Of a stretch of 64,000 bases of DNA, positions 5,542 to 62,290 are shown piece by piece. Source of the stretch: Corynebacterium afermentans subsp. afermentans. GTDB lineage: Bacteria > Actinomycetota > Actinomycetes > Mycobacteriales > Mycobacteriaceae. Made by a program: the position numbers and the translations under genes. The stretch's first letter is position 1, and the number at the start of each line of letters is the position of its first letter. A model generated the notes under the pieces. That model saw only the letters and a program-made list of their open reading frames with translations. It was not told the origin of the DNA and ran no database searches. The stretch lies in the NCBI RefSeq assembly GCF_030408355.1, contig NZ_CP046606.1:2046001-2110000 (forward strand), given 5' to 3'.

Positions 5542-6122
5542 AAAAGTCCCTTTCGAGGAATCTCGGAAACAACAGATCGCTGAGCCCGTGACAGGTGCAC
5601 AGCTAGTCAACCGTCCATAAGGGCCAACAAAGGCAAGCGTACGGACGCCTCAAGGGGGCTGCAATGACCCCCAAATACATATCGACGCACGTCATACAGG
5701 GTCAATCCTTGACTAAAATGACATATGCCACGGTTTACCTGGTCAGATGTTCACAACACCAAGGACGAAAAAGCGGAGCATTGAAGTATGGCAAACTCCC
5801 GGAAAACGCCGTTTTTAACAACTCGCTGAGCGAGCCGGCGAGTGAACATTCCCCCGCCCGCGAGAGCGGTACCGAGGGGTGGCGCAACAAGATTCCCAGC
5901 TAGGAAGTTCACGTCACAAAACTTGCTGGGAACTTGCTGGACAACTCGCACCTAATGAGCTTCAGCCAGGAAGACGCAGGTAGAGAGGACTTAAAATCAA
6001 GTAAGAATGTGACGCAGCGCTGCGTTCTTCACCCTTATGGGGGTGGCCGGAGGGGCGTCGATAGGCAAAGGCCCCCACCCTCCCTTGCGGGAGCGCGGGG
6101 GCCAACCTGGGCTTAGCCGAGG
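5542..6122. other. Intergenic region upstream of the 1180-5541 gene
   Basis: A minus-strand promoter is plausible: -35 TTGACC at 5700-5705 and -10 TATGTA at 5676-5681, 18 bases apart. TTGACCCT also occurs about 80 bases upstream of the next paralogue (12094-12099), so the element may be shared. A terminator for the next paralogue lies at 6070-6103. The rest (5720-6050) shows AT-richer sequence with no supported gene. Confidence 0.5.
6070..6103 (-). terminator. Terminator of the 6123-12014 surface-protein gene
   Basis: GGCCCCC at 6070-6076 pairs with GGGGGCC at 6097-6103, with an inner CTCCC/GGGAG stem. On the minus strand it runs into TTTGCC and then one copy of the iterated 12-mer at 6056-6067. 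Confidence 0.75.
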
Positions 6123-9100
6123 CTACTTCTTCTCAGAAGAGCCCTGCTTCACCGCCTTCTCCTCCTTCTTGGAGGAACCGGCGTAGGTCTTGCCGGAGGA
6201 ACCCTCGAGGCGCAGCTCGTTCACGGAGCTCTGGGAGCCCTCCGGAGCACACGCGTCGTAGATGATCGTGCCGGCGAGAATGCCAGCCGCGATCAGAGCC
6301 AGGGCGCCAGCGACAGTACCGAAATCGGTGCCGTACTGAGCCAGCTGCTTGTTAATCGCATCCACCTGGACTGCAACCTCCGGGTTGAACAGGCCGAGCT
6401 GCTGCTGCATCTGGGTGTTGACGTTCTGCAGCTGCGCGTTGACGTCGCCGACCATGTTGGAAAGACCCGGGAGCTCAACCTGGGTAGCCAGGCCAACCGG
6501 GATCAGTGCTAGCAGCGGCAGACCAAAGCCGAGGGACGTAGCCAGGCACTTCTCGTTTACCTCGCGCGGCTCAGCCGGCTTCGCAGCCTCGGAGATCTTG
6601 AAGGTGACCTCGCGGGTATCGATGACCTTGCCCTCTTCATCCTTCGTGGTGAAGGCAACCTTGAAGGTGCCGGCCTTGGTCGGAGTACCCGTGATCTTGC
6701 CGTCCTTGAAGGTCAGGCCATCCGGCAGCTTGCCGCCGGTCAACTCCGGCTTCACGCCGATAGCCGAGACGGTGATCGGGTCGATCGCCTTGCCGACAGT
6801 GCCGTTGAAGGAGCCGTCGATGCGGATGATGCCGTGGCCGTTCTCGAGCTCCTTCGGGAAGGAGTTCTTGTCCAGCGCGTCGGTGCCCTCGGAGATTTCG
6901 TGGCCGTCGTTGACGCCGTCGCCGTCCGTGTCCGGGTTGTTCGGGTCGGTGCCGCGCTCGATCTCCTGGCCGTCGGTCAGGCCGTCGCCGTCAGAGTCCG
7001 ACTTGTTCGGATCCGTTGGAGCGCCGTTCTCCTCGCCGTCCTTCTTCGGGTTAGAGGTGAACGTGCCGTCCTCGTTCTTGGTCGGCTTGCCCCACGGGTT
7101 AAGGGAGCCGTCCTTCTCCTCCTTGTCGGTCAGGCCATCACGATCGGAGTCCTTGCCGCGGTAGTCGTCCTTATCCAGCGGGTCGGTGCCGTCGATCTTC
7201 TCCTGGCCGTCGTTGACGCCGTCACCATCGGTATCCGGGTTGTTCGGATTGGTCGGAGCCGGGTTGCCGTCCTCATCAACACGATTGACCTCGTCACCGT
7301 CGGAGATGCCGTCGCCGTCGGAGTCAGCCTTCGTCGGATCCGTCGGCTTACCGTCGAACTTGTTGCCCTCACCAGAGACCTCGTCACCATCATTGATGCC
7401 GTCGCCATCAGTGTCAGCCTTGTTCGGATCAGTACCAAGCTCCTTCTCCTCAGCGTCGGTCAGACCATCGCCATCAGAGTCCTTCTCCAGCGGGTTGGTG
7501 CCATCGGCCTTCTCCTCACCGTCAGAGATGCCGTCACCATCGGTATCCGGATTGTTCGGATCCGTGCCGTCAATGATCTCCTGACCATCGTTGACACCGT
7601 CCTTGTCGGAATCAGCGTTGTCCGGGTCGGTCGGAGCACCGTTGTCCTCGCCCTCACCCTTCGGGTTGGACGTCAGCGTGCCGTCCTCGTTCTCGGTCGG
7701 CTCACCCCACGGATTCTTGGAACCGTCCTTCTCCTCATTGTTGGTCAGACCATCGCGATCGTCGTCATCCTTATTCCCGCGGTAGTCATCCGGATCCAGC
7801 GGATCGGTGCCGTCGATCTTCTCCTGGCCGTCATTGACGCCGTCGCCGTCCGTATCCGGGTTGTTCGGATTGGTCGGAGCCGGGTTGCCGTCCTCATCAA
7901 CACGGTTGACCTCATCCCCATCAGAGATGCCGTCACCATCGGAGTCAGCCTTCGTCGGATCCGTCGGCTTACCGTCGAACTTGTTGCCATCACCAGAGAC
8001 CTCGTCACCATCATTGATGCCGTCGCCATCAGTGTCAGCCTTGTTCGGATCAGTACCAAGCTCCTTCTCCTCAGCGTCGGTCAGACCATCGCCATCGGAG
8101 TCCTTCTCCAGCGGGTTGGTGCCGTCCTTCTTCTCGTCACCATCAGAAATGCCGTCACCATCGGTATCCGGGTTGTTCGGATCCGTGCCATCGATGATCT
8201 CCTGACCGTCATCAACGCCATCCTCATCGGAGTCAGCGTTGTCCGGGTCCGTCGGAGCACCGTTGGTCTCACCCTCATCCTTCGGGTTCGAAGTAACGGT
8301 ACCGTCCTCGTTTTCGGTCGGCTCACCCCACGGGTTCTTGGAACCGTCCTTCTCCTCGTTGTTGGTCAGACCGTCGCGATCGTCATCATTCCTGTTACCG
8401 CGGTAGTCATCCTCATCCAACGGGTCGGTGCCGTCGATCTTCTCCTGGCCGTCGGTCACACCGTCGCCGTCGGTATCCGGGTTATTCGGATCCGTCGGAG
8501 CCGGGTTGCCGTCCTCATCAACACGATTGACCTCGTCACCATCGTTGATGCCGTCACCATCGGTGTCAGCCTCGGTCGGATCCGTCGGCTTACCGTCGTA
8601 CTTGTTGCCGTCACCGGAGACCTCATCACCATCGTTGATGCCGTCGCCGTCAGTGTCCTTCTTGGTCGGATCGGTGCCGAGCTCCTTCTCCTCACCATCG
8701 GTCAGGCCATCACCATCGGTGTCCTTGTTCTTCGGATCGGTGCCGTCGTTGACCTCATCACCGTCATTGACACCGTCACCATCGGTATCCGGGTTGTTCG
8801 GGTCGGTGCCGAGCTCCTTCTCCTCACCATCGGTCAGGCCATCGCCATCAGAATCCGGGTTCTTCGGATCAGTGCCGTTATCCTGCTCTTCCTTGTCAGA
8901 GACGCCATCACCATCGGTATCCGGGTTGTTCGGATCAGTGCCGAGCTCCTTCTCCTCACCATCCGTCAGGCCATCGCCATCAGAATCCGAGTTGTTCGGA
9001 TCAGTGCCGTCCTTGGCCTCTTCGCCGTCCTTGACACCGTCACCGTCGGTATCCGGATTGTTCGGATCAGTGCCGAGCTCCTTCTCCTCACCATCCGTCA

Positions 9101-12014
9101 GGCCATCGCCATCAGAATCCGGGTTCTTCGGATCGGTGCCGTCTTCGGCCTCATCGGTGTCCTTGACACCGTCACCATCCATGTCGTCGACATCGGCGGC
9201 AATCACGCGGATGTTGAACTTTTTGGACTCGCTCGACTCACCGTTCGTTGCGGTGACGGTTACTTCGGACTCACCAAGCTGCGTGGGTGTGCCCTCGATG
9301 GTCTGGGTGTCCTCATTGAAGGTCACACCATCCGGCAAGCCGGTAACGGTGACCTCAGCGCCTTCTGCGCCGCGCCCGTCCACCTGAACCTCGATCGGCT
9401 TGAGTGCCTGGCCTTTTGTCACGATCGCATCGACGATCGGGTGGACGTGCACGTCATTCGCAAGCGGGGAGAGGACAAACCTCGCGGAGACCTTATCATC
9501 CACTGAACCATCCGGGTACGTCACCGTAACCGGAACATCAAACTCCTCAACAGTATCGCCAGTCGGCTTCTCCGGAGCGGTAACAGTGATCTCACCGGTG
9601 TCCTCATTAATGTCAACGGTGTAGCCCTCAGGAGCCGTGAAGTCATCAGGAATCTTAAACTTCGAATCCGCCGGAACCTCGACGTCCTTACCGTCCTTGT
9701 CGGTAAAGCTCGGCGAAGACTTCGTCTCCTTACCAGGAACAACGAGCTTGTCCTTGTACTCCGGCTCAACGGTATCCGCCACGGCCGTGGTTACCTTCAG
9801 CGGCACACGATCCGTCACCTCGTACTCTTCACCCTTGGAGTCAACCAGGGTGTAGGTCACGGTGACGTTCGGGTTTTGCTCGTCAGCCGCAACTTCTTCA
9901 GTCGGCGTCCCGGTAACCTTGCCAGTCGCCGCCTCAAAGGTAAGGCCTGCCGGCAGGGTCGCCTGATCGACCGAAAGGGAGTCTTCCTTCACCTTCAGCT
10001 TCAACGGGTGATTCTCAAAACCAGTTGGCTTAACGTCATGCTCATACTCGGCATCAACAAAGCCAGCCTCCATCGGTGTATCGGTGATGGTCGCCACCAG
10101 TGTCACACTGTCCGTGCGGTCTTCCTCAATCTCAACCGACTTCGTCTTGACAACACGCTCATTCTCGGGTGCTTCCGGGTCAACGTAAACCGGGTTACCG
10201 TCCTCGTCAAAGATCGGCTGGTCTACCGTCGTCTTCACCTTGACTGTACGGGTGATAGTCGCCTCAGAGGTGCCTGCCTTCTCCGGAGTACCAGAGATCA
10301 TGCCGGTCTCTGAATCAAACTCCAAGCCCTCCGGAAGCCCCTCAGCCTTGTACGTCGTCTCCGAATTCTTAACCTTGTTGTTAGGTTCCTCTGGCAGATC
10401 CGCAAGCGCGTCAAATTCGTCGTACTCGTCGTACACCGAACCAAAAGGCATCACGACCGGCACAACAACAGTAAACGAGTCTGCAGCCAGCACAGTATCG
10501 TCGCCAGTGACGAACTCGGCAGTGTACAGATCACCATTCGCAGCGTCTTCAGGAACGGTCAGCTCGCAAGCATTTGCCTCAGCCTCGCTATTGATATCGC
10601 ACGTCTTGACGACCTCGCCGTTGTTCTTCTTCCAAACAATCTTGTTCGGCGTCACCGGGAACGGACCGGTGACATTCAGCTCGGCAGTATCACCAATGCG
10701 CGCAGGCATATCCGTCATGTTCAGGTTGGTGATATCCAACGAGACATCATGACGCGGCACCAACGCAAAGTTCACGTTGTACCACATTGGGTTCTGCACC
10801 GGGTTTTCCGCAGCAATCGGCGCTGGGTTACGAGTGCCGTTGTTCTTCGGGGAGTTGAACAAGGGCACACGCCATGCGGAGTAACCACTCGGGATCTCCC
10901 CATCAGCATTTTCCACGTGCGCGTAAAGGTACTGCTTGGTGTCGTCGGTCAGCGTCCCGCCCGGGAACTTCACAGAGTAGTAGCCATCCTCGCCGACTTC
11001 AGAACGCACAGTGGCCGCAATGTACTCCGGGTGCTCCTCCAGCAGCTTCTTTGCAGCAGCAAGCTTCTGCGCTTCAGGGAGCGTATCCACGGTCTCAGCA
11101 TACGCACCGGCGCCTGCCTTGGTCAGCACGCTCATGACCACATACATACCGGAGGCAGGAACATCGCGGGTATCGTTCGGTCCGTTGACGCGAGCATCCG
11201 TCGTCTCGTGCCAGACTTTGCCACCAACATGGCCCGTCATCGCCGGGTTAGTTGCCTGGCGCGGCACCGTCGGCGTCTCGTCGTTGATCCACTCGGACTT
11301 CGGCTTGTGCATGTACGGCACATCACGATCAGCCTGCATCAACACGGCAGTGCGCTGCATATTCGTACCGATCGTGTTCCAAGCGCCCTGCTGATCAGCA
11401 CCCATGGAGTTGCGGAACACACCCGGGAAGAAACCACCAACCTGGCGGAACGGGTACACGGTAAATCCGTTACGCTCATCCTCGAACGGGTTGATCCACA
11501 GCTTGTAGTACTGGTTCGTCGAAGCCGTGTAGGTGTGCGCCTTGCCGTGATGATCGATCCATGGCTTGCGCAGATCAAACGCGTAGGCACCAGGACCAGC
11601 CTGGTTAGCATTGCCGCCGCCCAATTCGCTTGTAGTCTGTGCAACATACACCGGCGAAACAGCACCGTCTTTATCGATCCACTGCATGTAGACCTTCGTG
11701 CCGTCCGGCACGGCCTGCTGGCCACCATCCGTCGGAGAAAATCCGTAGCCATCGTCAATAAATGCACGGCCCGAAAGCGCGGACTTCGCATTGGTCATAC
11801 CCGTTGCAGACCTGATGTAGCCGTTTGCAATGGCGTCGGCGACTATTGCACCGCTTTCATCCAAGGTCTCGGCGTCAGTGCTGACATCAGCAACCGCAGC
11901 AGGAGTCTCCTGAGCGACTGCTACCGACTGCGCGAACGGCGCTACCAGCGCAAACGACAGCGCGGCTGCGGCAACGGAGGTGCCACGGCGGCGAGCGATG
12001 TAGTTCTTCTTCAC
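6123..12014 (-). CDS. Giant secreted surface protein with Ig-like modules and about 28 TSP3-like calcium-binding repeats
   Basis: The 1963-residue protein starts at GTG 12012-12014 ([11 protein letters not shown]), with GAAGGGAA five bases upstream. Residues 1 to about 40 are a signal peptide. About 41-525 is the N-terminal region shared with the paralogues. About 525-940 holds putative Ig modules of the He_PIG type ([37 protein letters not shown]) and one YPDG module. About 941-1718 holds 28 DxDxDG repeats by my count. One more Ig module follows (about 1728-1808), then [20 protein letters not shown], a Gln-rich linker, a second membrane-like helix ([17 protein letters not shown]) and a Lys-rich tail. 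No LPXTG is present. An extracellular, calcium-stiffened adhesin is the likely role, by inference. Confidence 0.9.
6960..8700. repeat. About three 621-bp tandem units in the TSP3 array
   Basis: Blocks recur at 621-base offsets (7186, 7807 and 8428), each encoding 207 residues with seven DxDxDG motifs and a [24 protein letters not shown] insert. The first two are nearly identical, while the third has diverged. Outer borders are approximate. Confidence 0.8.
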
Positions 12015-12557
12015 AAAAATTCCCTTCGAGAGAGGTATTAGAGAGACATGAAGCCTGACCCAGTTCCGCAACAAACACGCACCTGTCGCATAGGGTCAAC
12101 ACGATCATCGTAAGAAACAAGACGCACGTTCACAATGCGGTTTCCAGATAACATTCATCGATCGCCAATTTTTCCGTAAGATCGGCACTTCTTTTACACT
12201 TGTCTCACCTGGTACTTTCCGGATTTGCGCAACATGTGTACATAAAATGATCACACATCATAAGCTAATGGTGTGATATGAAAACAATCCCCATTACGTC
12301 ACATCGCACACCCAACCCTCGACCCCACCCGGGTACGGCAGTCTCAAAACCGGTCGCCACACAGGCTCCCACCTGCATACTTGTTCACGTATCCACAACT
12401 ACACCGTCAACGCCGCGCCACCGAGCATCCAACAAGGCAGGTCAAAACACTGAAATATTGTTAAGATTTTTGCGCTTACCCGAAAACGGGGGCGAAAACG
12501 CCGAAAGGCGCCTGCAAAACAGTCGCCTTTTCACCCCCAAACCCCCTTTGGAACGTG
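12015..12557. other. Intergenic region between purA and the surface-protein gene
   Basis: It contains the purA terminator (12504-12530) and the minus-strand promoter region of the surface gene. TTGACC at 12094-12099 resembles the -35 of the sister gene, but no good -10 is visible. ATCACAC and GTGTGAT around 12250-12280 form a loose inverted repeat. An open frame from 12278 on the plus strand runs antisense into purA and lacks support. Confidence 0.4.
12504..12530. terminator. purA terminator, possibly bidirectional
   Basis: AAAGGCG at 12504-12510 pairs with CGCCTTT at 12524-12530; an inner CTG/CAG stem surrounds a CAAAA loop. T or A runs on both sides make it usable from either strand. It lies 28 bases past the purA stop codon. 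Confidence 0.8.
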
Positions 12558-13899: not shown

Positions 13900-14694
13900 A
13901 TGCGGCTCATCCACTGCGCGTGCGGCGACGCGCCCGTCATCCCCGGCGCCCAGCGCTTCGACCTTCCCCAGCACCCCAGCCAGCGGGAACTGAAGTTTCT
14001 GGCGCAGATCGCCCGCGAAGTGTTGCCGGAGGATCCCACCCCATCTTTGGATGAGATTCAGGCAAGCCCGAACGTGTCCCACCTCGGCGAGCCGGCGTTT
14101 GCACCCCAGCGCCCCGCAGAGCCAGTGCGCGTGATTGTTTCCGGCGATGATCGCGCGCTCGGCCTCGTGCTCACCCGCCTCATGCGGGCGGATGTGATGT
14201 GGGTGGAGGTCGGTTACGTGCCCGTCGATAAGCACTCGCCCGCAGCGCTCGTGTGGGGCGCAGGCGATATAGCACTCGCGGTTGAGGGCGCGGTGCGGCC
14301 GATGCCGTGCGTGCGCACGGACTTCGGCGAGGCGGTTGCGGGGTCCGCGGAGCTCTACACCGGCGACGGGTCGGCGCCCTACGTAGGCGAAATTGTCGTG
14401 GATTCGGAGGTGCTCGTCGGCGGCGACGAGTACGGCGCACGGCTGGTGCCCACCGTGGACGCGCCCGGGCTGGTCGCGGTCCCGTTTGTCAGCCCGCTGG
14501 TGCCCACGCGCCGCTTCTTCCGGCGACTACCCGTGCGCCGCACTGACTCCTCCCGGGTGCTCGCGGGCCGCGCGCTGCAATCCGGGGGCGAGGAAATTGC
14601 CGTACTTATCGACGGCATTCTGCGCCCCCGCCCCGTTTCGCGGGTCACCTTTTACCGCCATTTACGCGACATCCAGAGCGTGCGAGAGTCTTAA
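13900..14694 (+). CDS. Conserved hypothetical protein next to purA
   Basis: A 264-residue soluble protein that I cannot assign to a family. It begins [23 protein letters not shown] 13900 is preferred, but GTG 13891 is in frame. Neither has a clear ribosome-binding site. The ATG is preceded by a TATTGTA box at 13883-13889, so a leaderless transcript is possible. No signal peptide or membrane segment is visible. The C-terminal half is rich in V, R and D, with [23 protein letters not shown]. Two copies of the iterated 12-mer (one imperfect, 14603-14614) lie within it. Divergent from purA. Function unknown. Confidence 0.75.
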
Positions 14695-15021
14695 ATCCCT
14701 AAACGTGATTTATCTCACAGTGGGATTTTTGTGGCGTTTGGTTAGCGTTTCGTTACCTCGTCGGTATTTGAAAGTGTTGTAGGTTTTTTCGTTTTCGGTG
14801 CCGTCGATAGGCAAATGCCCACGTCACAGACACATTTAAGGGGCTACCTGAAACTGGGAGGTTTGTCGCTCGAACTTTTGTTCAGTGACCCAAATTTGGA
14901 CGACCGTCCAGACGTAGGGGCGGGGCCTTCCCTACATTCGGATTTGTTCCCGCAAGGACCGCTTCAGACGGGAAACGCGGGGCACGACAAATCTACTAGC
15001 CGAAATCTTTAAGGAGAAATC
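14695..15021. other. Upstream region of the PRC-barrel/DUF2382 gene
   Basis: This 327-base gap contains a T-rich stretch (14781-14800), a 12-mer copy at 14802-14813 and, just before the start codon, the strong ribosome-binding site AAGGAG at 15011-15016. The length suggests a regulated promoter or long leader, but I see no confident promoter or riboswitch fold. Confidence 0.4.
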
Positions 15022-15882: not shown

Positions 15883-15887
15883 ACACT

Positions 15888-17304: not shown

Positions 17305-17324
17305 CGTCGATAAGCAAAGAGTGC

Positions 17325-18407: not shown

Positions 18408-19604
18408 TTACGCCTGCGCTGCAGCCACCCTCGCCGCCGCCTCCAGCAGCATCCAGCCGGAAAGTTGGACGGACAGGTCGCGCTCGTCGATACGCACAAG
18501 CCCCACCGCCTCGCTTATCGACGAAGGCCCGAGCCCGTAGTTGTGCGGCAACTTCGCATCCTGCGTCCACTCCGCGGCGAACACCGGCAAACCGTCCACC
18601 TCAAGGCGGTGCGACCACAGCGAATCCGCCGACTGCATAACCAGTCGCGCCGCGATCTTGCGGGTGGCGATGTTCTCCTTCGAATCCGCCGGCAGCCGCA
18701 GCGCCACCTCCGCCAGGTAGCGTGCGAGGATGCCCTTGAACAGGCCGCCGTCGCCCTCCCCGGACTCCTCCGGCGGGCTCAGCAACACACCCTGCGGGGT
18801 GGCCAGGTTCAGCGCCACCGACTGCACGATCGCGCGGATGTGGGTGATGTAGAACATCGACGCGTCCGCGCGCTCCGAGTAGACGAAGGAATCGATCTGC
18901 TCGTTGTACGCCAGGCCAACGTCCTCACGCAGCGCGAGTGCGATTTCCAGGCTCGCACCAAGTGCGGTGCCCTGGTTGTACGTGTAAATCTTATCCACGA
19001 CCTCCGGTCCGCTCATGCGCATCCGAATGCCATCGTCGAGCAGGCCGTCCTCGCGCACCAGATTGTCAAAGATCCAGTCCACAATCTCACGCGCCTTATC
19101 CAGCCTGCCCGTGCGGGCGAACAGCAAAGCCGCAGTGGCATTCGACGGCACGTTGTAGAACGTCTCGCCGCTGCGCCAGGGCAGCACGCCGGTGACCGGG
19201 TCGATGCCCGCGAGCAGGTCAAACTCCAGATCATCCAAGTGGCGGTTGCGCTTGATGCCGCCGATGCGGGTCGCGCGGTTCCACGCCAGTGCCAACCACG
19301 CCTTGTCGTCGTAGTGGACGTTGGTGAGCAGCTTGCCCCGGTTGCGGCGCTGCACCCCGCGCAACGTGTCCGCGATCCGGCGGCGGCGGGTCTTGGTTTC
19401 CCGGCGGGTAGCGGCGTCGACCTGACAATCCAGGTACTGCGCCTGCCACCAGTAGTGCCAGTGCCAAAACAAACGGTCTTTGGGGCCCGGCGGCCACGTC
19501 ACCACCGCCAGATTCGTTTTGGGCAAGCCCCAGAGCTTTTGCGCGTGGCGTTCATTTACGGCAGATTCAGCCAGGTCAGCGCGGTGCGCCCACGTTTCCG
19601 GCAC
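18408..19604 (-). CDS. Glycoside hydrolase family 76-like protein (alpha-1,6-mannanase family)
   Basis: With GTG 19602-19604 as start the protein has 398 residues (VPETWAHRADLAESAVNERH...). I prefer this start because GAGGAG lies six bases upstream. A further GTG at 19667 adds 21 residues but has no ribosome-binding site. WAHRADLAESAVNERHAQKLWGLP, NVHYDDKAWLALAW, FYNVPSNATAALLFAR and LLDDGIRMR resemble GH76 proteins, which cleave alpha-1,6-mannose chains; the paired aspartates are candidate catalytic residues. There is no signal peptide, so any role in mannan, lipomannan or other glycan turnover would be cytosolic or via an unusual route. It precedes fba. Confidence 0.8.
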   Translation of the reverse strand: MPETWAHRADLAESAVNERHAQKLWGLPKTNLAVVTWPPGPKDRLFWHWHYWWQAQYLDCQVDAATRRETKTRRRRIADTLRGVQRRNRGKLLTNVHYDDKAWLALAWNRATRIGGIKRNRHLDDLEFDLLAGIDPVTGVLPWRSGETFYNVPSNATAALLFARTGRLDKAREIVDWIFDNLVREDGLLDDGIRMRMSGPEVVDKIYTYNQGTALGASLEIALALREDVGLAYNEQIDSFVYSERADASMFYITHIRAIVQSVALNLATPQGVLLSPPEESGEGDGGLFKGILARYLAEVALRLPADSKENIATRKIAARLVMQSADSLWSHRLEVDGLPVFAAEWTQDAKLPHNYGLGPSSISEAVGLVRIDERDLSVQLSGWMLLEAAARVAAAQA

Positions 19605-19778
19605 AGGGGACTCCTCAAGTTCAAACGGTTCGTACCTATATTGCCAGAGGCACCGGTTTCGTTTCACCGGTTCTGGCGGGTTTTAGGGGTTCTGGCCGCC
19701 CAGCTAAACGAAACGCGTAAAAGTTGACATCCGAGACGGTTGTCCAACTTTAAACGGAAGGGGCCGCCAGCGAGATCC

Positions 19779-20983: not shown

Positions 20984-21883
20984 CTACTCCTTATCGTCGA
21001 AAATTGAGCTCGGGCCCTGCATGCGGCGCACCCGGGTCAGGTCCACCACGCGGCGCTCGTCGCCGGCGATAGCTTCCACGTCGTCGCCGCCGATGGTGTG
21101 GTCGGCCACCTCGCCGCGCTCGCCGCCGGTGGTGCGCGTCGGCAGCTCCACGGGGTCCTCCGGGCGCTGCATCACCGGCTCGTTCTCCGCCTCTTGCGCC
21201 GCCGCGGGGGCCTGTCCTGGGATTTCGCGGGTGGGGAATGGCAGGTTCAGCGGGGTGTCGTCGATAGGCGGCAGCGTCCGGGCCGCATCCGCGAGCAGCG
21301 CCAGGGGCGCCAGCGTCGCGTCCCAATCTTGCGGGGTGGCGTCGCGGCCCAGCTGGGCAATCGCCCACGCGCCCTCGAACCAGACGGCCTGCACAGCGGC
21401 GGGAAGTTGTTCGAGCGCAGTGAGCACTCGCCTATCGACGAACCTCCGGCCCGCCCCCGCCTGCGTCGCAAAACACGTGAACCCATGGTGCGTGTCCAGT
21501 TCCACCAGGTCGTCGGAGCCTTCCGCCGCGAAATCCGTGCGGCGGAAATCCACCACCGCGCTGGTCTCGGCGCCGGTGCCCATGGCGATGACGGTGGCAT
21601 CACCCAGGTCCGCCACGTGCGCGTCGTGCCCGTAGGCGGCGCCGGTGGCAACGTTTCGGGCGGGCGCTCCCCCGGCGGCGGCGCCGCGCGACCACTCGCT
21701 GGCCAGCATGTCGTCGCTGGACGCAAACGCGTAGCCGTGTTCACGCGCCCAGGCGCGGCGGGCACGCTTGCTGGGCTTGGCGGGTTTGGCGGGGTGCGTG
21801 CTGCGCTCACGGGAGTCCGACGCGAACAGCGCCACGGCGGCGAGCAGCGCCACGAGTGCGAGAACGAACAGCAGGATGACCAT
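20984..21883 (-). CDS. Conserved hypothetical membrane-anchored protein
   Basis: A 299-residue protein with one N-terminal membrane helix (MVILLFVLALVALLAAVALFA) followed by a basic patch and a long soluble part. The C-terminal third is rich in Pro, Glu and Thr and looks disordered. I recognise no enzyme motif. It sits four bases upstream of pyrE on the same strand. Topology is probably an N-terminal anchor with a cytosolic body, by the positive-inside rule. Function unknown. Confidence 0.8.
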   Translation of the reverse strand: MVILLFVLALVALLAAVALFASDSRERSTHPAKPAKPSKRARRAWAREHGYAFASSDDMLASEWSRGAAAGGAPARNVATGAAYGHDAHVADLGDATVIAMGTGAETSAVVDFRRTDFAAEGSDDLVELDTHHGFTCFATQAGAGRRFVDRRVLTALEQLPAAVQAVWFEGAWAIAQLGRDATPQDWDATLAPLALLADAARTLPPIDDTPLNLPFPTREIPGQAPAAAQEAENEPVMQRPEDPVELPTRTTGGERGEVADHTIGGDDVEAIAGDERRVVDLTRVRRMQGPSSIFDDKE

Positions 21884-21912: not shown

Positions 21913-22755
21913 CTAAATGTCCGTCGCCACCGGGTTGTCGCGGTTCGCGCTCCACTGGGACCAGCCGCCCACGTAATGGGTGAGCAGCGGCAGGCCGGCG
22001 TGCTCCATCGCGGCCAGCAGCAGGGCGGAGTGGTTGCCGGAGCCGGAGTAGGTGATCACGCCGGCCGGGTCCGTGTTCTGGGTAACGCCCAGCTGGGAGA
22101 AACGGTCGCGGATCGTGTCGGTGTCCTTCACCTTGTGGCTCTCCGGATCGAACAGGTCGTTGACCGGCAAGTTCCGTGCACCCGGGATGTGCCCGGCGCG
22201 CAGGTCCAGGATTTCGCGGAGGCCCTGAAAACGGCGGGCACCTCTGGCGTCGATAAGCAATCCCTCAAATGCCCTGACGTCCTCCATAGTTGCGGACGGC
22301 AAGTTGCCCTCGGTGAGCTCGACGCCGCGCGGGACGACGATGCCTCCCGGGCCCGCGACCGTGGGGAAACCTTCGCCGTCCCAGGCGGCGAAGCCGCCGT
22401 CGAGAATGTGCACGTCCGTCACGCCCGCCCAGCGCAGAATCCACCATGCGCGGGCGGCGAACAGGCCGTTGCCACCGTCGTAGATGTACACCGGGCGGCC
22501 GTCCTCGATGCCCCAGCCCGCGGCCGCTTTCCTGACAACGTCAATGCTGGGCAGCGGGTTGCGGCCCACCGCACGGCCGGGCAAGCCGGCAAGCTGCACC
22601 GAAGGGTCGCAGTACAGCGCCGTCGGGATGTGCTCCGATTGGAATTTGGACCACGCTTTGCCGTCTTTCGGCTCCCACAGCGCGGCGATAATGGTCTGTT
22701 TTTGGCCAGTCTGGATGCGTTCGTTGAGTTCAGCGGCGGAGACAAACACGCTCAT
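21913..22755 (-). CDS. Rhodanese-type sulfurtransferase homologue lacking the catalytic cysteine
   Basis: A 280-residue two-domain rhodanese-like protein similar to thiosulfate/3-mercaptopyruvate sulfurtransferases (SseA). It shows domain one with YIYDGGNGLFAARAWWILRWAG and HILDGGFAAWDGEG, and domain two with LIDARGARRFQG and AGHIPGARNLP. The active-site loop, normally CGSGV(T/S)A, reads YSGSGNHSA at residues 236-244, with Ser237 (TCC) at the position of the persulfide-forming cysteine. A true sulfurtransferase reaction is therefore doubtful; a binding or other role is possible. Located 29 bases from the hypothetical membrane-protein gene on the same strand. Confidence 0.88.
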   Translation of the reverse strand: MSVFVSAAELNERIQTGQKQTIIAALWEPKDGKAWSKFQSEHIPTALYCDPSVQLAGLPGRAVGRNPLPSIDVVRKAAAGWGIEDGRPVYIYDGGNGLFAARAWWILRWAGVTDVHILDGGFAAWDGEGFPTVAGPGGIVVPRGVELTEGNLPSATMEDVRAFEGLLIDARGARRFQGLREILDLRAGHIPGARNLPVNDLFDPESHKVKDTDTIRDRFSQLGVTQNTDPAGVITYSGSGNHSALLLAAMEHAGLPLLTHYVGGWSQWSANRDNPVATDI

Positions 22756-27812: not shown

Positions 27813-29198
27813 GGGTTAAACGACAAAAAGTGTGTCTGGAATCGACGATTTTCAGGGTTTGACCTGTAGGTTTCAGGGAAATATATGCTTCGGGGGCATA
27901 TATTTAGGTCTCGAGCGTTCAATCCTCGGTGTGGCTGCCGTGATGTGCTATGTGCGGCGTGGTGTGGTGTCGCAATGTCAAAGAACCAACCACGCTGCCA
28001 CTGCGGCGGAGAAATGAAACGAAACGGCACCACTAGCAAAGGCACCACCAGGTGGCGCTGCAAACGATGCGGCGCCTCCAGCGTGAAACGCAGAAGCGAC
28101 ATCACCAACGCGGCGGCGTTCACCGTCTTCATCGACCACCTCACCACCGGCGCCAGCCTCGATACCGTTGCCCGCCGTGTGGGGTGCTCACCGCGCACGA
28201 TGCAACGTCGATTCGAACCGTTCTGGTTCGTTGATGTGCCTGACCCCACCGCCGGCCACGACAAGCGGGTCTACGACCAGATCTTCCTTGACGGCACCTA
28301 CACCGCTGGCGGCTGCTTGATCGTCGCGGCGACGATCGACCACGTGATTGCCTGGCACTGGTGCAAACACGAAACCACCCGCGACTACCAACTGCTGCTT
28401 GAGCGCATCGAAGCCCCACTCATCGCCGTCATCGACGGCGGCCAAGGCGCATACAGCGCGATCAAAAAGTGCTGGCCGACTACGAAAATTCAACGCTGCC
28501 TCGTCCACGCCCAACGCGTGGTACGCCGCTACACCACCAGTAACCCACGCACCGATGCCGGGCGCACCATCTACCGACTTGCGCTGAAGCTGACCCGGAT
28601 CACCACGCTGGATGAAGCCGCTGCATGGGGTGCGCAGCTGCACGAGTTCTCCACGCTCTACCGGTCATGGATGGACGAGAAAACCCTGGTCAAAGATCCC
28701 AAAACCGGTGCATGGACCCGCGTGTGGACGCATCACAACGTGCGCAAGGCATACAACAGCCTCAACCATCTTTGGCGGTCCGAGATGCTGTTTGTCTACC
28801 TCAACCCGCCAAAAGCAGTACTTCAACCAGAGTGGATCAAATCCACCACCAACAGCCTGGAAGGCGGCATCAACGCCCAGCTCAAACTGCTCGCCAGAAC
28901 ACACCGCGGCAGATCAGGTGAACGACAACGCCGCATGCTGGATTGGTGGCTCTATTTGAAAACGGAACTGCCTGACGATCCAGTACGAATCGCCAGTCAG
29001 TCCGACTGGGGCCAGGGCCAACTCGCCAAAGTATCCACCCTGACCCGAAACGAGAACGAAGCCGACCACGAAACCGGACGACCAGCCCTCTACGACAACG
29101 CTATCGACACCAACTACACACACTCAATCGGCATCCAAAAAGGCCAAATCTAACCCCCACGACACGCTGAATCAGACACACTTTTTGTCGTTTAACCC
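27813..29198 (+). mobile_element. Complete IS1249-like insertion sequence (IS256 family-type)
   Basis: The element is 1386 bp, bounded by 26-bp perfect inverted repeats: left 27813-27838 (GGGTTAAACGACAAAAAG...) and right 29173-29198. Directly outside both ends is TTAAAAAG (27805-27812 and 29199-29206), an 8-bp target duplication. It holds one transposase gene. Perfect ends and an intact duplication imply a recent insertion. The duplication lies next to a hairpin (about 29210-29232), so it landed beside a terminator. Confidence 0.93.
27975..29153 (+). CDS. IS1249-family transposase
   Basis: A 392-residue transposase beginning MSKNQPRCHCGGEMKRNGT. A zinc-ribbon-like N-terminus (CHCGG...CKRCG) is followed by a helix-turn-helix-like part (VARRVGCSPRTMQRRF). 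A DDE catalytic core follows: QIFLDGTYTAGGCLIVAATID, LIAVIDGGQGAYSAIKKCWP with RCLVHAQR, and later STTNSLEGGINAQLK. The candidate acidic triad is D in FLDGTY, D in VIDGGQ and E in NSLEG. The frame is open further upstream to 27885, but ATG 27975 starts the conserved part. Intact, so the element may be active. Confidence 0.92.
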   Translation: MSKNQPRCHCGGEMKRNGTTSKGTTRWRCKRCGASSVKRRSDITNAAAFTVFIDHLTTGASLDTVARRVGCSPRTMQRRFEPFWFVDVPDPTAGHDKRVYDQIFLDGTYTAGGCLIVAATIDHVIAWHWCKHETTRDYQLLLERIEAPLIAVIDGGQGAYSAIKKCWPTTKIQRCLVHAQRVVRRYTTSNPRTDAGRTIYRLALKLTRITTLDEAAAWGAQLHEFSTLYRSWMDEKTLVKDPKTGAWTRVWTHHNVRKAYNSLNHLWRSEMLFVYLNPPKAVLQPEWIKSTTNSLEGGINAQLKLLARTHRGRSGERQRRMLDWWLYLKTELPDDPVRIASQSDWGQGQLAKVSTLTRNENEADHETGRPALYDNAIDTNYTHSIGIQKGQI

Positions 29199-33393: not shown

Positions 33394-33645
33394 ATGACAT
33401 TTCTTCAACTGACCACAGACACCGCACCCGCCGCCCGCAGCTGCATCCGCAGCTTCACCGCCCTTCCCGCCGCCCACTTAAATCCCTCGCGCTCCGCGTC
33501 CGCGCTCACATCGTTGCAGGACGTTGAGCATTTGCTTGTCGACGATGTCACGTCCCGCCTGGACACCCACCTCCACGACGTCGCCGCATTTGCGTCCAAA
33601 GTGGAGCAGACGGACACCCGCTTGGGCAAGGAGCTCACGCCGTGA
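33394..33645 (+). CDS. Small helical hypothetical protein (83 residues)
   Basis: MTFLQLTTDTAPAARSC... starts at ATG 33394. The length and predicted helical character (SLQDVEHLLVDDVTSRLDTHLHDVAAFASKVEQTDTRLGKEL) recall small WXG100-like partner proteins, but there is no WxG motif. The stop codon overlaps the GTG start of the next gene (GTGA), showing translational coupling. It is likely a partner or chaperone of the downstream hydrolase, by inference. Contains one copy of the iterated 12-mer (33533-33544). Confidence 0.75.
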   Translation: MTFLQLTTDTAPAARSCIRSFTALPAAHLNPSRSASALTSLQDVEHLLVDDVTSRLDTHLHDVAAFASKVEQTDTRLGKELTP

Positions 33646-42179: not shown

Positions 42180-42200
42180 GAATCGTCGACAAGCAACTGC

Positions 42201-47639: not shown

Positions 47640-48278
47640 TCAGGCGTCCTTTTCGGCAGTGCGGTATCGGTTGGCAACAACATCCGCGAGGTCTGTGGTC
47701 AGCGGCCCAGAAGCTGACAGGTGCGGTGGGATCCGGTCCAGGAGTGTTCCGTGGGTGACAAACAGCGGCAGCACGTGTGTGTGCCTATCGACGAACCTCC
47801 GGTCGCCCCTCGTCGCCTGCACCACCGACACATCGATCCCGGCCAAACGCGCCAGGTTGTCCGCCAGGCGGGCGTAGTTCGCGGCCTGTTCGGCATCCGA
47901 TGTGCCGACGGGAAATAGGGTGGCGTGGGACGCCGAAGGTGCGTCGATACGCAAGCGCTTGTGCAGGGTCTCGGCGATGTCGGGGCCGGTGCCGAACGGC
48001 TCAGCGAGGGTGAGGTCGCAGTGCTCGCGCGCCTCGGTGAGGTGGGCCGGCACGTCCACCTTCGCGTGGAACGCGCGGGTGAACAGCAGCGGCACGACGA
48101 TGGCGCGCGGCGAAGACAACGCGGCGGCCGCCTCGGCAAGGGTGGGGCGATCGAACTCGAGGTGCGCGTCCGCCCACTCCACACCGAGCTTTTCGGCGGC
48201 CGCTTCGGTGAGCGCGCGGATGCCCTCCTTGGCCCGCGGGTGGCGCGAGCCGTGGGAGAGGGTGATCAGCGCGGTCAT
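47640..48278 (-). CDS. cysY: Sirohydrochlorin chelatase-like protein
   Basis: A 212-residue CbiX/SirB-type protein: MTALITLSHGSRHPRAKEGI and VVPLLFTRAFHAKVDVPAHL hold the metal- and tetrapyrrole-binding His residues. It should insert iron in sirohydrochlorin for sirohaem, the CysI cofactor. Operon position between cysN and cysZ supports this. Two copies of the iterated 12-mer are in its coding sequence. Start ATG 48276-48278, eleven bases after cysN. Confidence 0.9.
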   Translation of the reverse strand: MTALITLSHGSRHPRAKEGIRALTEAAAEKLGVEWADAHLEFDRPTLAEAAAALSSPRAIVVPLLFTRAFHAKVDVPAHLTEAREHCDLTLAEPFGTGPDIAETLHKRLRIDAPSASHATLFPVGTSDAEQAANYARLADNLARLAGIDVSVVQATRGDRRFVDRHTHVLPLFVTHGTLLDRIPPHLSASGPLTTDLADVVANRYRTAEKDA

Positions 48279-48289: not shown

Positions 48290-49579
48290 CTAGCGCAGGC
48301 GCTTTCCCACGAGACCCGCGGCCAGCGTGTTGCCGGAAGACTGGTCCACGAGCAGGAAGTTGCCCACCGCGCCGCGGGCCGCGTAGGGCTCGACCGGCAA
48401 CTCGTCGGCGGTCTGGATGGTCACGTGCGCGATCTCGTTGAGCGCGACGGCCTCGGGCGAGGTGTTGTCGCCGGCAGCACCGTCGATGTCGAGGACGCGG
48501 TCCACGCTGGCCACGCGGGCGCGCACGAACGCGGTGCCGATGCGCAGCTTCACAGCCTGCCCGGCGCGCAACTCCTTCTCGGTGAGCCCCACAACGGTGG
48601 CGGCGAACTCCCTTGTGTCTTCTGGCCGGGTTCCAGAGGCCAGGAGGTCACCGCGGGTCAGGTCAATTTCGTCGGCAAGGCGCAGGGCCACCGAGTCGCC
48701 GGCGTGGGCGGCCTCCACCGGGCCGTCGGTGGAATCGATGCCGGCCACGGTGGTTTTCCGGCCGTACGGGGCGAGGACCTCATCGCCGACGGAGATGGAA
48801 CCGGCGTTGACGCGGCCGGCGTAGGCGCGGTAGTCGGTGGCGTGCTCGCGAAGCACGTACTGGATGTTGAAGCGGAAGTCCAGGTCGTCGGCGCGGCCGT
48901 GGTTAACCGGGATGGTCTCCAGCAGCTCCAGCACGGTCGGGCCGGTGTACCAGGGCGTTTCCGCGGACAGTTCAGCGACGTTGTCGCCCTTGAGCGCGGA
49001 AATCGGCACCACGTGCGGGTCCTCGATGCCGAGCTCGGCGGCCTTGGCGTCGAAGGTGGTCTTGATCTCGTTGAAGGTCTCCTCCGAGTAGCCGACCAGG
49101 TCGATCTTGTTCACCGCCAGGATCACGGTGCGCACGCCCAGCAGCTTGGCCACGGTGAGGTGGCGGACGGTCTGTTCCACCACGCCGCTGCGGGCGTCCA
49201 CCAGCAGCACGACCACCTGGGAGGTGGACATGCCGGTCACGGTGTTGCGCGTGTACTGCACGTGCCCCGGGGTGTCGGCGAGGATGAAGGTGCGCTTATC
49301 GGTGGCGAAGTAGCGGTAGGCCACGTCGATGGTGATGCCCTGTTCGCGTTCGGCGCGGAGCCCGTCGACAAGCAAGGAAAGGTCGAGGCCCTCAAAGCCC
49401 CTGTCGGCCGAGGTGCGCTCGACGGAGGCAAGCTGGTCCGCGAGCACGGACTTCGTGTCGTGCAAAAGGCGGCCGACGAAGGTGGACTTGCCGTCGTCGA
49501 CGGAGCCGGCGGTGCACAGGCGCAGGGTTTCGCGGTCCGCCAACGCGGCTGCGGCGGAAGTGGTGGTCGGGGCAGTCAT
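48290..49579 (-). CDS. cysN: Sulfate adenylyltransferase subunit 1 (GTPase)
   Basis: A 429-residue EF-Tu-like GTPase that drives APS formation with CysD. GTP-binding motifs: GSVDDGKSTFVGRLLHD near 20 (P-loop), DTPGH near 100, NKIDLV near 155. Two beta-barrel domains follow. It is not fused to an APS kinase domain, in line with APS-reductase-type sulfate assimilation. Start ATG 49577-49579 overlaps the cysD stop codon by one base. Confidence 0.96.
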   Translation of the reverse strand: MTAPTTTSAAAALADRETLRLCTAGSVDDGKSTFVGRLLHDTKSVLADQLASVERTSADRGFEGLDLSLLVDGLRAEREQGITIDVAYRYFATDKRTFILADTPGHVQYTRNTVTGMSTSQVVVLLVDARSGVVEQTVRHLTVAKLLGVRTVILAVNKIDLVGYSEETFNEIKTTFDAKAAELGIEDPHVVPISALKGDNVAELSAETPWYTGPTVLELLETIPVNHGRADDLDFRFNIQYVLREHATDYRAYAGRVNAGSISVGDEVLAPYGRKTTVAGIDSTDGPVEAAHAGDSVALRLADEIDLTRGDLLASGTRPEDTREFAATVVGLTEKELRAGQAVKLRIGTAFVRARVASVDRVLDIDGAAGDNTSPEAVALNEIAHVTIQTADELPVEPYAARGAVGNFLLVDQSSGNTLAAGLVGKRLR

Positions 49580-54944: not shown

Positions 54945-55015
54945 GGCAGCAGCAGTATCGCAGCAGCGCGGCCCCACCGGTCTAGGATTACCCCGGAGAA
55001 AAGAGAGGGGCACTC

Positions 55016-56722
55016 ATGGATCTCATCCGCCTCACCGCGCGTTTTGGCAAGCGGTACAGCGGCAAGATCGCGCTGGTTATCGTGCTGCAGCTGGTCACGA
55101 CCCTGGCCACGCTGTACTTGCCGGACTTGAACGCGGACATCATCAACAACGGCGTCGCCCAGGCGGACGTGCCGTATATCTGGCGCACCGGCCGCACGAT
55201 GCTGGCAGTCGCGCTGGTGCAGATCGCAGCGGCGATCGCGGCAGTGTGGTTCGCCTCCCAGGTGGCCATGGACACCGGCCGGGACATCAGGGCCTCCGTG
55301 TACAACCGGGTGTCCGATTTCGATAGCGAGGAGATGGCGCATTTCGGCGCCGCCACACTGGTCACGCGCGGCACGAATGACGTCCAGCAGGTGCAAATGA
55401 CGTTCCTGTTGTTCATGAACTTCATGGTCGCAGCACCCATCATGGCCATCGGCGGCATCATCATGGCGCTGCGCCAGGACGCTGGTATGTCGTGGCTGGT
55501 GGTCACGGCGGTGCTCGTCCTGGCCGTCGTGGTGGGCGTCACCGCGGCGATCCTGATGCCGCTGTTCAAGCGCATGCAGACAAAGCTTGACGCGATCAAC
55601 GGCCTGTTGCGCGAGCAGATCGCGGGCATCCGGGTGGTGCGCGCGTTCGGCCGCGAGGACTACGAGGCCGAGCGGTTCACGGACGCGAACCACGACATCA
55701 CCAGGCTAAGTCTGAACATCGGCCGCGTGTTCGTCACAATGTTCCCGGTGATCATGCTCATCCTCAACCTCGCCACCGCGGCCGTGCTGTGGTTCGGCGG
55801 CCACCGCGTGGACGACGGCCTGGTGGAGGTCGGTTCACTCACCGCGTTCATGCAGTACCTGATGCAGATCCTCATGGCGGTGATGATGGGCGTGTTCATG
55901 CTGATGATGCTGCCGCGCGCGATTGTCTGCGCGGATCGCATCGAGGAGGTGCTCGGGCATGAGGTGAAGGCGTCGGTGGCCGAAGGGGCGTCGATAGGCG
56001 AAGGCTCCGTGCGCTTCGAGGACGTCTCCTACACCTACCCGGGCGCGGAGAAGCCGGTGCTTGAGGGCATTTCGTTCGAGGCCCGCCCGGGGACCACGAC
56101 TGCGATCATCGGCTCGACGGGCAGCGGCAAGACCACACTCGCGGGGCTGTTGCCCCGGCTGTACTCGCCGACTTCGGGGCGCGTGCTTATCGACGGCCAT
56201 CCGGTCACCCACATCCCGCGCCAAGACCTGGTCAAGGCGGTCGCGATGGTGCCGCAGAAGCCGTGGCTGTTCTCCGGCACGGTGGCGTCGAACCTGCGCA
56301 TGGGCAACCCGAACGCCACAGACGAGCAGCTTTGGGCGGCGCTGCGGACCGCGCAGGCCGGGTTCGTGGACGATTTGGACATGCCGATTTCCCAGGGCGG
56401 CACCAACGTCTCGGGCGGGCAGCGCCAGCGCCTGTGCATCGCGCGGATGTTTGTGGCGGATCCGAAGGTGTACGTCTTCGACGATTCGTTCAGCGCGCTG
56501 GACGCGACCACCGAGGCGAACCTGAACGCGGCGATGCGCGAGATCGTGCAGGAGCGCACCGTGATCGTGGTGGCGCAGAAAGTGTCCTCGATAAGGCACG
56601 CGGACCAGATTCTGGTGATGGAGGCTGGGCGCATCGTCGCGCGCGACACCCACGACGAGCTGCTGCAAACCAGCGAGACGTACCGGGAGATCGCGGCGAG
56701 CCAGGCGGAGGTGGACGCATGA
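55016..56722 (+). CDS. ABC exporter half-transporter with degenerate ATPase site
   Basis: A 568-residue protein with an N-terminal six-helix exporter domain (1-320) and a C-terminal ATPase domain. Walker A STGSGKTT near 372 and signature VSGGQRQR are intact. The Walker B end is YVFDDS (486-491), with Asp490 in place of the catalytic Glu, and the switch His is replaced by Gln521 (VVAQKVSS). This is the pattern of the non-catalytic half in heterodimeric exporters such as BmrCD or TM287/288. Its stop overlaps the next gene (ATGA). Substrate unknown, likely drugs or lipids. Confidence 0.93.
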   Translation: MDLIRLTARFGKRYSGKIALVIVLQLVTTLATLYLPDLNADIINNGVAQADVPYIWRTGRTMLAVALVQIAAAIAAVWFASQVAMDTGRDIRASVYNRVSDFDSEEMAHFGAATLVTRGTNDVQQVQMTFLLFMNFMVAAPIMAIGGIIMALRQDAGMSWLVVTAVLVLAVVVGVTAAILMPLFKRMQTKLDAINGLLREQIAGIRVVRAFGREDYEAERFTDANHDITRLSLNIGRVFVTMFPVIMLILNLATAAVLWFGGHRVDDGLVEVGSLTAFMQYLMQILMAVMMGVFMLMMLPRAIVCADRIEEVLGHEVKASVAEGASIGEGSVRFEDVSYTYPGAEKPVLEGISFEARPGTTTAIIGSTGSGKTTLAGLLPRLYSPTSGRVLIDGHPVTHIPRQDLVKAVAMVPQKPWLFSGTVASNLRMGNPNATDEQLWAALRTAQAGFVDDLDMPISQGGTNVSGGQRQRLCIARMFVADPKVYVFDDSFSALDATTEANLNAAMREIVQERTVIVVAQKVSSIRHADQILVMEAGRIVARDTHDELLQTSETYREIAASQAEVDA

Positions 56723-58671: not shown

Positions 58672-58689
58672 CTGACAGCAAATTCACAC

Positions 58690-58733: not shown

Positions 58734-58783
58734 CGGCCATACGCTGGCGGGCGAGCCTATGTCAGCTGACTGATTGGGAAACC

Positions 58784-60067: not shown

Positions 60068-60079
60068 GGAGCCCCCAAA

Positions 60080-61382: not shown

Positions 61383-61396
61383 GTAGGATCAGGCGC

Positions 61397-61618
61397 ATGA
61401 CTACCGAAAACGAAGGCCTGTACACCAACATCGAGACCGGGAAGACCGCTGCCGGCCAGGACGCCGCGGGCGGCGCGAACCAGAACATGGACACCCTGCC
61501 GCTCGGCGAGGGCGTGCGCACCGTCGAGGAAGCCGAGAACCACGAGGACAACGCTCGCTGGAACGACGGCAACCTGCCGCGCGAAGAGGTCCGCGACGGC
61601 TCCCGCGAGGACAGCTAA
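61397..61618 (+). CDS. Small acidic hypothetical protein (73 residues)
   Basis: MTTENEGLYTNIETGKTAAGQ... is rich in Glu, Asp, Gly and Asn, soluble and probably disordered. Start ATG 61397, fourteen bases after the PstS-like gene. Codon usage fits the neighbours (GAG, AAC, GAC). A terminator hairpin follows. No family recognised. Confidence 0.6.
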   Translation: MTTENEGLYTNIETGKTAAGQDAAGGANQNMDTLPLGEGVRTVEEAENHEDNARWNDGNLPREEVRDGSREDS

Positions 61619-61634
61619 CCGCACGCGCAACCAC

Positions 61635-61667
61635 CGCCCCGGACGTGCACGACAGCCGTCCGGGGCG
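61635..61667 (+). terminator. Terminator after the phosphate gene group
   Basis: CGCCCCGGAC (61635-61644) pairs with GTCCGGGGCG (61658-61667), loop of 13. A short TTACT follows. It lies 16 bases past the small acidic gene. Confidence 0.75.
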
Positions 61668-61681
61668 TTACTATATGCGGC

Positions 61682-62290
61682 GTGAGCACCCCATACGGCA
61701 ACTTCAGAATCGGCGACCAGGAGCGCATGGACGCCATGGACACCCTCGGCCGCGCACTTGGCGAGGGCCGACTCAACATGGGCGAATTCGATGACCGCTG
61801 CCGACAGGTCGCCGAAGCACAGGTCCACTCCGACCTGGAACCGATTCTCGGGGATTTGCCGCCGCAGCAGCAGGCCGGGGGTGCCGTCGATAGGCAAGAA
61901 GTGCACCCGGGCGACGTGTTTTACAGCGGCCGCGAGATCATGCAGGCGCGGCGCTCCGGCAAGCGCATGCGCGCGGGCATGTTTTGGCTGGGCACGGTAG
62001 GCGCGTTCGGGCTCACCGCGCTGCACCCGGTGTTCCTGCTACTCATCCCTACCCTGTTCATCCTGCTGTACGTAATGAAGGTCGGCCCGGACTCCTGGTA
62101 CACCCCCACCCTGCGGCAGCTGGAGCAGCAGCGCCGCCAGGAAATCAAACGCCGCCAGCTGGAAATCGAATCTGCCAAGGCGCACCAGCATGCCATGATG
62201 CGGGTGCAGCGTAGGGACCAGTTCAACCAGCTGACCTCGGACGCGCTCGATGTTGCACAAAACACGATAAACCGCTTCCGCAAACAGTAA
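61682..62290 (+). CDS. DUF1707 domain membrane protein
   Basis: A 202-residue protein starting at GTG 61682. Residues about 8-60 form the DUF1707 domain (FRIGDQERMDAMDTLGRALGEGRLNMGEFDDRCRQVAEAQVHSDLEPILGDLP), common in actinobacteria. A membrane hairpin follows (GMFWLGTVGAFGLTALHPVFLLLIPTLFILLYVM), then a charged coiled-coil C-terminus (LRQLEQQRRQEIKRRQLEIESAKAHQH). Start may be leaderless: TACTATAT precedes it closely. Function unknown. A 12-mer copy is inside (61885-61896). Confidence 0.88.
   Translation: MSTPYGNFRIGDQERMDAMDTLGRALGEGRLNMGEFDDRCRQVAEAQVHSDLEPILGDLPPQQQAGGAVDRQEVHPGDVFYSGREIMQARRSGKRMRAGMFWLGTVGAFGLTALHPVFLLLIPTLFILLYVMKVGPDSWYTPTLRQLEQQRRQEIKRRQLEIESAKAHQHAMMRVQRRDQFNQLTSDALDVAQNTINRFRKQ

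Follow-up and report, generated by a model that had tools for sequence, protein, structure and literature searches.

Within a 64,000-bp stretch of the Corynebacterium afermentans subsp. afermentans genome (hereafter the window; positions 2,046,001–2,110,000 of genome G000, a single contig of 2,375,453 bp), a 12-mer, CGTCGAYAVGCR, recurs on both strands, in genes and between them. Exact copies of this word were taken as strict sites, matches to CGTCGNNARGC as relaxed cores, and the reversed pattern served as a control. The original prediction, made from the letters of the window, had counted 18 exact matches (12 plus, 6 minus) where about 0.1 was expected by chance. The excess itself stood, but a minus-strand copy at 969–980 had been overlooked, which brings the count to 19 (12 plus, 7 minus), and the expectation from dinucleotide shuffles was higher, at 0.36 (100 shuffles, largest 2). 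Its estimate of at least five near-matches was borne out by 18, for a total of 37 sites with at most one mismatch, and CGTCGNNARGC was found 37 times (23 plus, 14 minus) against 3.15 expected.

Four of the strict sites are intergenic, at 969–980 (minus, CGTCGACAGGCA), 6056–6067 (plus, CGTCGATAGGCA, with 17 G and 10 C in the 40 nt upstream), 14802–14813 (plus, CGTCGATAGGCA) and 42184–42195 (plus, CGTCGACAAGCA). Four are read in the sense direction, as S-I-S at 18512–18523 (minus, CGTCGATAAGCG) and as V-D-R at 21429–21440 (minus, CGTCGATAGGCG), 47782–47793 (minus, CGTCGATAGGCA) and 61885–61896 (plus, CGTCGATAGGCA). Antisense sites lie at 18485–18496 (plus, CGTCGATACGCA) in the open reading frame (ORF) 18408–19667, where the site converges with that at 18512, at 21259–21270 (plus, CGTCGATAGGCG) and 47942–47953 (plus, CGTCGATACGCA), at 22248–22259 (plus) and 31722–31733 (minus), both CGTCGATAAGCA and opposite L-I-D, and at 49363–49374 (plus, CGTCGACAAGCA) opposite L-V-D. 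The remaining strict sites are at 14223–14234 (plus, CGTCGATAAGCA; upstream G 20, C 6), 17305–17316 (plus, CGTCGATAAGCA), 33533–33544 (minus, CGTCGACAAGCA), 55989–56000 (plus, CGTCGATAGGCG; upstream G 21, C 7) and 56184–56195 (minus, CGTCGATAAGCA). The 37 CGTCGNNARGC cores span 970–62955 and 17 of them lie inside strict sites; the others start at 4321, 13220, 16398, 24408, 25580, 27302, 33089, 37665, 40858, 44453, 51143, 52245 and 58617 on the plus strand and at 24822, 30048, 39191, 51188, 52020, 57885 and 62945 on the minus strand.

The phenomenon proved larger than first noted. In the whole genome, the strict 12-mer occurred 489 times (255 forward, 234 reverse) against 8 occurrences (2 and 6) of its reversed pattern, and CRTCGNNAAGC occurred 1225 times against 108. 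For codon shuffles, flanks and placement, we used a 464-kb sample made up of the window and 20 further stretches of 20 kb each. This sample contained 105 strict sites, whereas its 20 synonymous-codon shuffles averaged 6.5 and never exceeded 12; for CGTCGNNAAGC, the 231 copies observed stand against a shuffled average of 27.4 and at most 35. The original prediction had staked its claim on this comparison, and the counts lay far above the controls. The iterated motif of the window is thus confirmed as real, and its over-representation beyond codon constraint, genome-wide and on both strands, is what a DNA uptake sequence would show.

Anatomy, placement and turnover of the site

Alignment of the 105 strict sites, together with an analysis by site class, showed that the 12-mer is the core at one end of a one-sided site of about 50 bp. 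On the core strand, the ∼40 nt 5' of the core are rich in G and poor in C, with G reaching 80% at position −14 and 74% at −11 and also being preferred at −17, while on the 3' side the core is often followed directly by A and, at three to five bases, by GC. The window sites likewise carry, on average, a G-rich 5' tract of ∼40 nt. Against class-matched backgrounds, the upstream excess of G over C had z scores of 7.6 for sites not within an ORF (n = 26), 9.0 for antisense phase 1 (n = 43), 8.7 for sense phase 2 (n = 20) and 5.8 for sense phase 1 (n = 12), with a few sites classed differently between the two gene models used. As the excess is present in all four classes, the G tract is no by-product of codons, and inside genes it is strongest at wobble positions. 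None of the 105 strict sites was read in sense phase 0, as expected because this frame mostly yields TAA or TAG. A 3-nt periodicity of the upstream G was discarded as a feature of the site, being partly due to wobble positions and less regular outside genes. When a weight matrix was iterated without constraint, the search strayed towards codon periodicity, and the site classes with matched background were used instead.

The strict sites fell in ORFs in 81 cases, between genes in 22 and at gene edges in 2, without significant intergenic preference (22/105 against 17% of the sequence, P = 0.24). The motif is indeed read in different frames within genes, as L-I/V-D antisense and as V-D-R and S-I-S sense, and 9 of the 144 ATA codons and 8 of the 341 AGG codons of the sample lie inside it; ATA had been called rare, and only two codons are rarer in this sample. 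Sites were present in all 21 sampled stretches, with near-exponential spacing, a median of 1065 bp and no exclusion zone. The gene dnaA is at coordinate 1 of the genome; sampled stretches mostly have a positive GC skew if they lie in the first half of the chromosome and a negative one if they lie in the second. The relaxed sites of the first half were 61 on the plus and 65 on the minus strand, those of the second half 90 and 78, respectively. With 139 sites on the leading and 155 on the lagging strand (P = 0.38), the sampled stretches of this genome showed no strand bias relative to replication. Inverted uptake-sequence pairs serve as terminators in Neisseria; this role was rejected here, as just 2 head-to-head pairs occurred in 464 kb.

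The window also contains an insertion sequence of ∼1.37 kb (27824–29190) whose ends read ACACACTTTTTGTCGTTTAACCC and whose ORF (27885–29153) encodes a Mutator-family transposase. Across the 464-kb sample, this element is present as four complete copies, none of which contains the motif, and as one isolated end. The minus strand of the window encodes, at 1180–5610 and 6123–12074, two giant proteins of surface type whose repeats are of the Rib, long Rib, TSP3 and Ig-like kinds. That the motif avoids surface-protein genes held for the exact 12-mer in these two ORFs, but not for the relaxed site, which occurs at 4321 and seven times in L078:238–8982, the gene of a 2914-aa Rib-repeat protein adjoining comEA/comEC.

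In a 20-kb Tad region compared with 12 relatives, orthologous places differed by substitutions. Of 106 places aligned across 11 relatives, 52 kept CGTCG..AAGC exactly, compared with 191 of 974 for 400 permuted cores. Against G159, the nearest relative used (91% identity in the window), it was kept at 55 of 65 places, compared with 215 of 445 for 300 permuted cores (P = 2e-8), and the 11 relaxed sites not kept there comprised 7 with substitutions and 4 in gapped alignment. The original prediction had considered selection or copying at the DNA level to be likely. Selection or drive on the motif is supported, since codon shuffling destroys the signal and the core is preferentially retained, whereas copying is not, since orthologous places are mostly substituted. 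Turnover by point mutation with retention by selection or drive is also the behaviour anticipated for an uptake sequence.

The sites were scarce in part of the DNA that is not shared with this relative. In the window, 35 sites lay in the 49.7 kb aligned to G159 and 2 in the 14.3 kb unaligned (P = 0.006); with the stretches L022, L024 and L026 added, the numbers were 80 in 107 kb shared and 3 in 16.8 kb (P = 0.0025), a comparison with one relative in stretches chosen afterwards. The giant repeat-protein genes may be where most of the motif-poor unaligned DNA of the window is located.

Spread and dialects in Corynebacterium

Among 201 Corynebacterium genomes, the strict 12-mer occurred in 1 to 814 copies per genome. 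CRTCGNNAAGC reached 2032 copies and exceeded the reversed pattern at least 3-fold in 153 genomes, 2- to 3-fold in 6 and less than 2-fold in 42, so that the motif does recur in related species. None of the 140 genomes from 30 other genera of the family was above 2.7-fold, and within the family the site is confined to Corynebacterium. Counts were also given to 36 of 80 named TadA loci. All 32 named Corynebacterium genomes were enriched 2.98-fold or more, including C. striatum (1262 vs 84), C. pseudodiphtheriticum (1004 vs 60), C. tuberculostearicum (1009 vs 63) and C. pilosum (1969 vs 112), while the four outgroups Millisia, Mycolicibacterium, Amycolatopsis and Rhodococcus were at most 1.3-fold enriched. 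These named loci represent the strongest TadA matches, which leaves motif-poor Corynebacterium under-represented among them; the closest named relative by TadA was C. haemomassiliense (98%).

Gapped words were then compared with codon shuffles in sampled stretches to define dialects, among them CGTCG, CATCG, GGCGTCGA and GGCGTCA. The stretches of G149, G137 and G099 were picked near listed matches and their observed-to-shuffled ratios therefore run high; the CRTCGNNAAGC counts given above cover whole genomes. N runs in two stretches of our own genome were read as A and gave a poly-A artefact there. CGTCGATAAGC was obtained in G000, G149 and G137, and CGTCGNNAAGC with a free middle was found in G099 (89 vs 7.8). 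The other dialect words were CATCGNNAAGC in G006 (47 vs 3.9) and G144 (62 vs 9.1), GGCGTCGA, followed 3' by A-rich sequence, in G148 (35 vs 7.8), and GGCGTCANNAA in G054, where GGCGTC..AAA was counted 16 times vs 0.8. Eight sampled genomes, representing five dialects, have retained the upstream tract, with G minus C at 0.08 to 0.19 across the 40 nt, and share the G at −11, −14 and −17 counted from CRTC.

No dialect word was found in the sampled stretches of G014, G030 and G163, and six pooled Tad regions of motif-poor genomes gave no clear word. The matches in the motif-free G163 (13 matches) and in G014 were without the G tract, and G030 had just 3 matches. We did not count as dialects CGTCGAGC in G152 (32 vs 5.6), which was without G at −11, and CGGCGTCC in G147 (139 vs 57), although both are possible further dialects.

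When the labels CG, CA and none were mapped onto a TadA tree with 47 rows, 11 changes were required, compared with a mean of 17.0 after shuffling and with none of 200 shuffles as low; each label came from counts in one 20-kb locus, and 10 of 57 loci were absent because no TadA was recognized by text pattern. The carriers of CATCG were KPL1814, MSK130, G006 and, weakly, C. macginleyi (3 vs 1, labelled none), and their sister clade of C. tuberculostearicum, C. kefirresidentii and BWA136 carries CGTCG. The dialects thus cluster by phylogeny, in line with an uptake sequence.

A putative uptake sequence and its rivals

An uptake sequence presupposes a competence machinery, which this genome encodes. 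We found ComEC (TIGR00360), ComEA (TIGR00426), DprA, a prepilin peptidase and a Tad/Flp-type pilus cluster with CpaE-like (TIGR03815), TadA (TIGR03819) and Rv3654c-like (TIGR03816) proteins, a TadE-like protein (NF041390 match, below the family cut-off), a Flp-like protein of 73 aa judged by eye and, in its neighbourhood, a DEAH-box helicase (TIGR03817). The comEC product is 525 aa long and matches the ComEC core only, and many motif-poor genomes have comEC open frames of more than 700 aa (frame lengths are rough). With comEC in 200 and TadA in 195 of the 201 Corynebacterium genomes, gene presence does not track motif presence and was dropped as its cause; motif-rich and motif-poor species could be separable by the specificity or use of the machinery, not by its presence.

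We consider that the motif is the core of a putative Corynebacterium DNA uptake sequence, with a probability of roughly 65%. A surface receptor of the competence machine (ComEA/ComEC with the Tad/Flp-type pilus) would preferentially bind double-stranded DNA bearing the site, that is, CRTCGNNAAGC preceded by ∼40 bp rich in G and poor in C, after which the Tad pilus would pull the DNA in, ComEC would pass it through, and DprA and RecA would recombine it. If the receptor prefers the site, uptake and recombination would favour DNA whose dialect is identical or related, and the resulting bias (molecular drive) would let sites accumulate every 1 to 2 kb by point mutation where coding allows. The accumulation is observed as a pattern; that Corynebacterium take up DNA, and that uptake prefers the site, we infer. 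By analogy with ComP, the site would be read by a TadE-like or Rv3654c-like minor pilin, or by ComEA.

Several properties of the site recall known systems, described here as in excerpts of the cited papers. Uptake signal sequences (USS) are spaced at ∼1000 bp in Haemophilus influenzae (PMC7811141) and have a one-sided flank of biased composition of up to 32 nt in Pasteurellaceae (PMC12616744). As here, the USS is an oriented, interrupted site with a short core and ∼1-kb spacing, and it has dialects (two). USS density is lower in non-shared segments, a pattern seen here in the window and three further stretches but weak over all seven. Its sequence is unrelated, and its flank is AT-rich and downstream, whereas the Corynebacterium flank is G-rich and upstream, in a putative uptake site of actinobacteria. 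The DNA uptake sequences (DUS) of Neisseriaceae come in several dialects that follow phylogeny and share a conserved inner core (PMC3630211). They resemble the present site in being short words in about a thousand to several thousand copies, but are continuous, up to ∼13 nt long and without a long flank, and bind the type IVa minor pilin ComP, whereas Corynebacterium has a Tad/Flp-type pilus cluster with a putative receptor. Natural transformation of the actinobacterium Micrococcus luteus, which likewise has ComEA/ComEC and Flp/Tad pili, requires these pili (PMC6370729, PMC6667448), whereas no uptake sequence is mentioned for it in the excerpts of these two papers. Occurrence on both strands without replication bias, roughly kilobase spacing, dialects, an interrupted core with a one-sided flank, turnover mostly by substitution with retention above controls, and scarcity in part of the non-shared DNA together fit, by analogy, the product of uptake bias and recombination in Pasteurellaceae and Neisseriaceae. 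Among the listed matches in open-licence PubMed Central, judged by title and abstract start and with subscription papers and preprints outside the scope, no paper dealt with an uptake sequence or natural transformation in Corynebacterium; the 11-mer CGTCGATAAGC was met in at least three papers, all on other subjects.

Some observations weigh against an uptake sequence. The listed literature matches included no uptake experiment in Corynebacterium. The near-universal comEC and TadA genes extend to G014, G030 and G163, the genomes in whose sampled stretches no motif turned up. Comparison of the CATCG clade (G006, KPL1814, C. macginleyi, MSK130) with the CGTCG clade (BWA136, C. tuberculostearicum, C. 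kefirresidentii) yielded no receptor outlier among the Tad-cluster proteins, with mean inter-clade identities of 0.84 for TadE-like, 0.74 for Rv3654c-like, 0.86 for TadA, 0.74 for CpaE-like and 0.73 for TadC-like proteins. The origin half was mildly denser in sites (191 in 264 kb vs 103 in 200 kb, P = 0.006), which was not predicted. When all seven stretches were considered by adding L023, L025 and L027, 88 sites lay in 123 kb of shared DNA and 33 in 61 kb of unaligned DNA, only a small difference, although much of the unaligned DNA of these three stretches may simply be unfetched. Finally, a Chi-like signal predicts many of the same patterns.

Such a signal, in which the core would alter a helicase-nuclease (AdnAB or a relative) at DNA ends and RecA would be loaded on the 5' G-rich tract, is the main rival, because the G tract of this oriented site lies where RecA would load on the recombinogenic single strand. 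This fits the logic of Chi and the preference of RecA for GT-rich DNA, a background covered in part by PMC1193525. Chi sites too are oriented, over-represented and lineage-specific, and density and selection would look alike. We nevertheless regard it as unlikely, given that the site has no replication-strand bias in its own genome, is far longer than known Chi sites and differs in dialect between sister clades; E. coli Chi is biased to the leading strand, and known Chi sites measure 5 to 8 nt. The coverage of all 21 stretches, the denser origin half and the single architecture shared by several dialects would also suit a nucleoid or chromosome-organising protein that binds the site all along the chromosome. 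This is very unlikely in view of the near-random spacing without exclusion zone, the rapid dialect changes and the rarity of sites in window DNA missing from G159, and known chromosome-organising sites are mostly palindromic.

The original prediction had likened the motif to HIP1, uptake or segregation motifs, of which uptake fits best. A HIP1-like word kept by a methylase, by repair or mutation bias or by another DNA-level process would be abundant in coding and non-coding DNA, as this one is. HIP1 is the palindromic GCGATCGC, while the present site is not palindromic, is interrupted and is flanked on one side by a selected ∼40-nt tract with fixed G positions, which leaves this explanation very little chance of being right. 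A segregation signal of the KOPS (FtsK orienting polar sequences) or AIMS (architecture imparting sequences) type, or a dispersed mobile repeat, has only the high copy number in its favour and is hardly credible. It is already disfavoured by the strand and orthology tests, as KOPS and AIMS words have a strand bias towards the terminus that is not seen here, and orthologous places show substitutions instead of the insertions by which a mobile repeat is gained, with no significant intergenic preference.

We know of no self-DNA uptake code described outside Proteobacteria. The joint claim would be that Corynebacterium possesses a third independent code of this kind, read across the mycomembrane by a Tad/Flp-type pilus receptor that recognises ∼50 bp, with Gs about one helical turn ahead of CRTCGNNAAGC, and that its dialects act like mating types, structuring gene exchange in most of the genus, including skin and nose commensals; for this whole we hold the balance to be even. 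Even if the site is no uptake sequence, an oriented, selected ∼50-bp site with up to ∼2000 copies per genome demands explanation. If it is one, natural transformability would be a present or recent trait of most Corynebacterium species, with DNA sorted according to a code that is specific to species groups, and, since sister clades have different dialects, the receptor should be findable by comparison. This would add a third independent case to the question of why uptake specificity evolves, would explain gene-exchange barriers inside the genus and would aid the genetics of species that are hard to transform.

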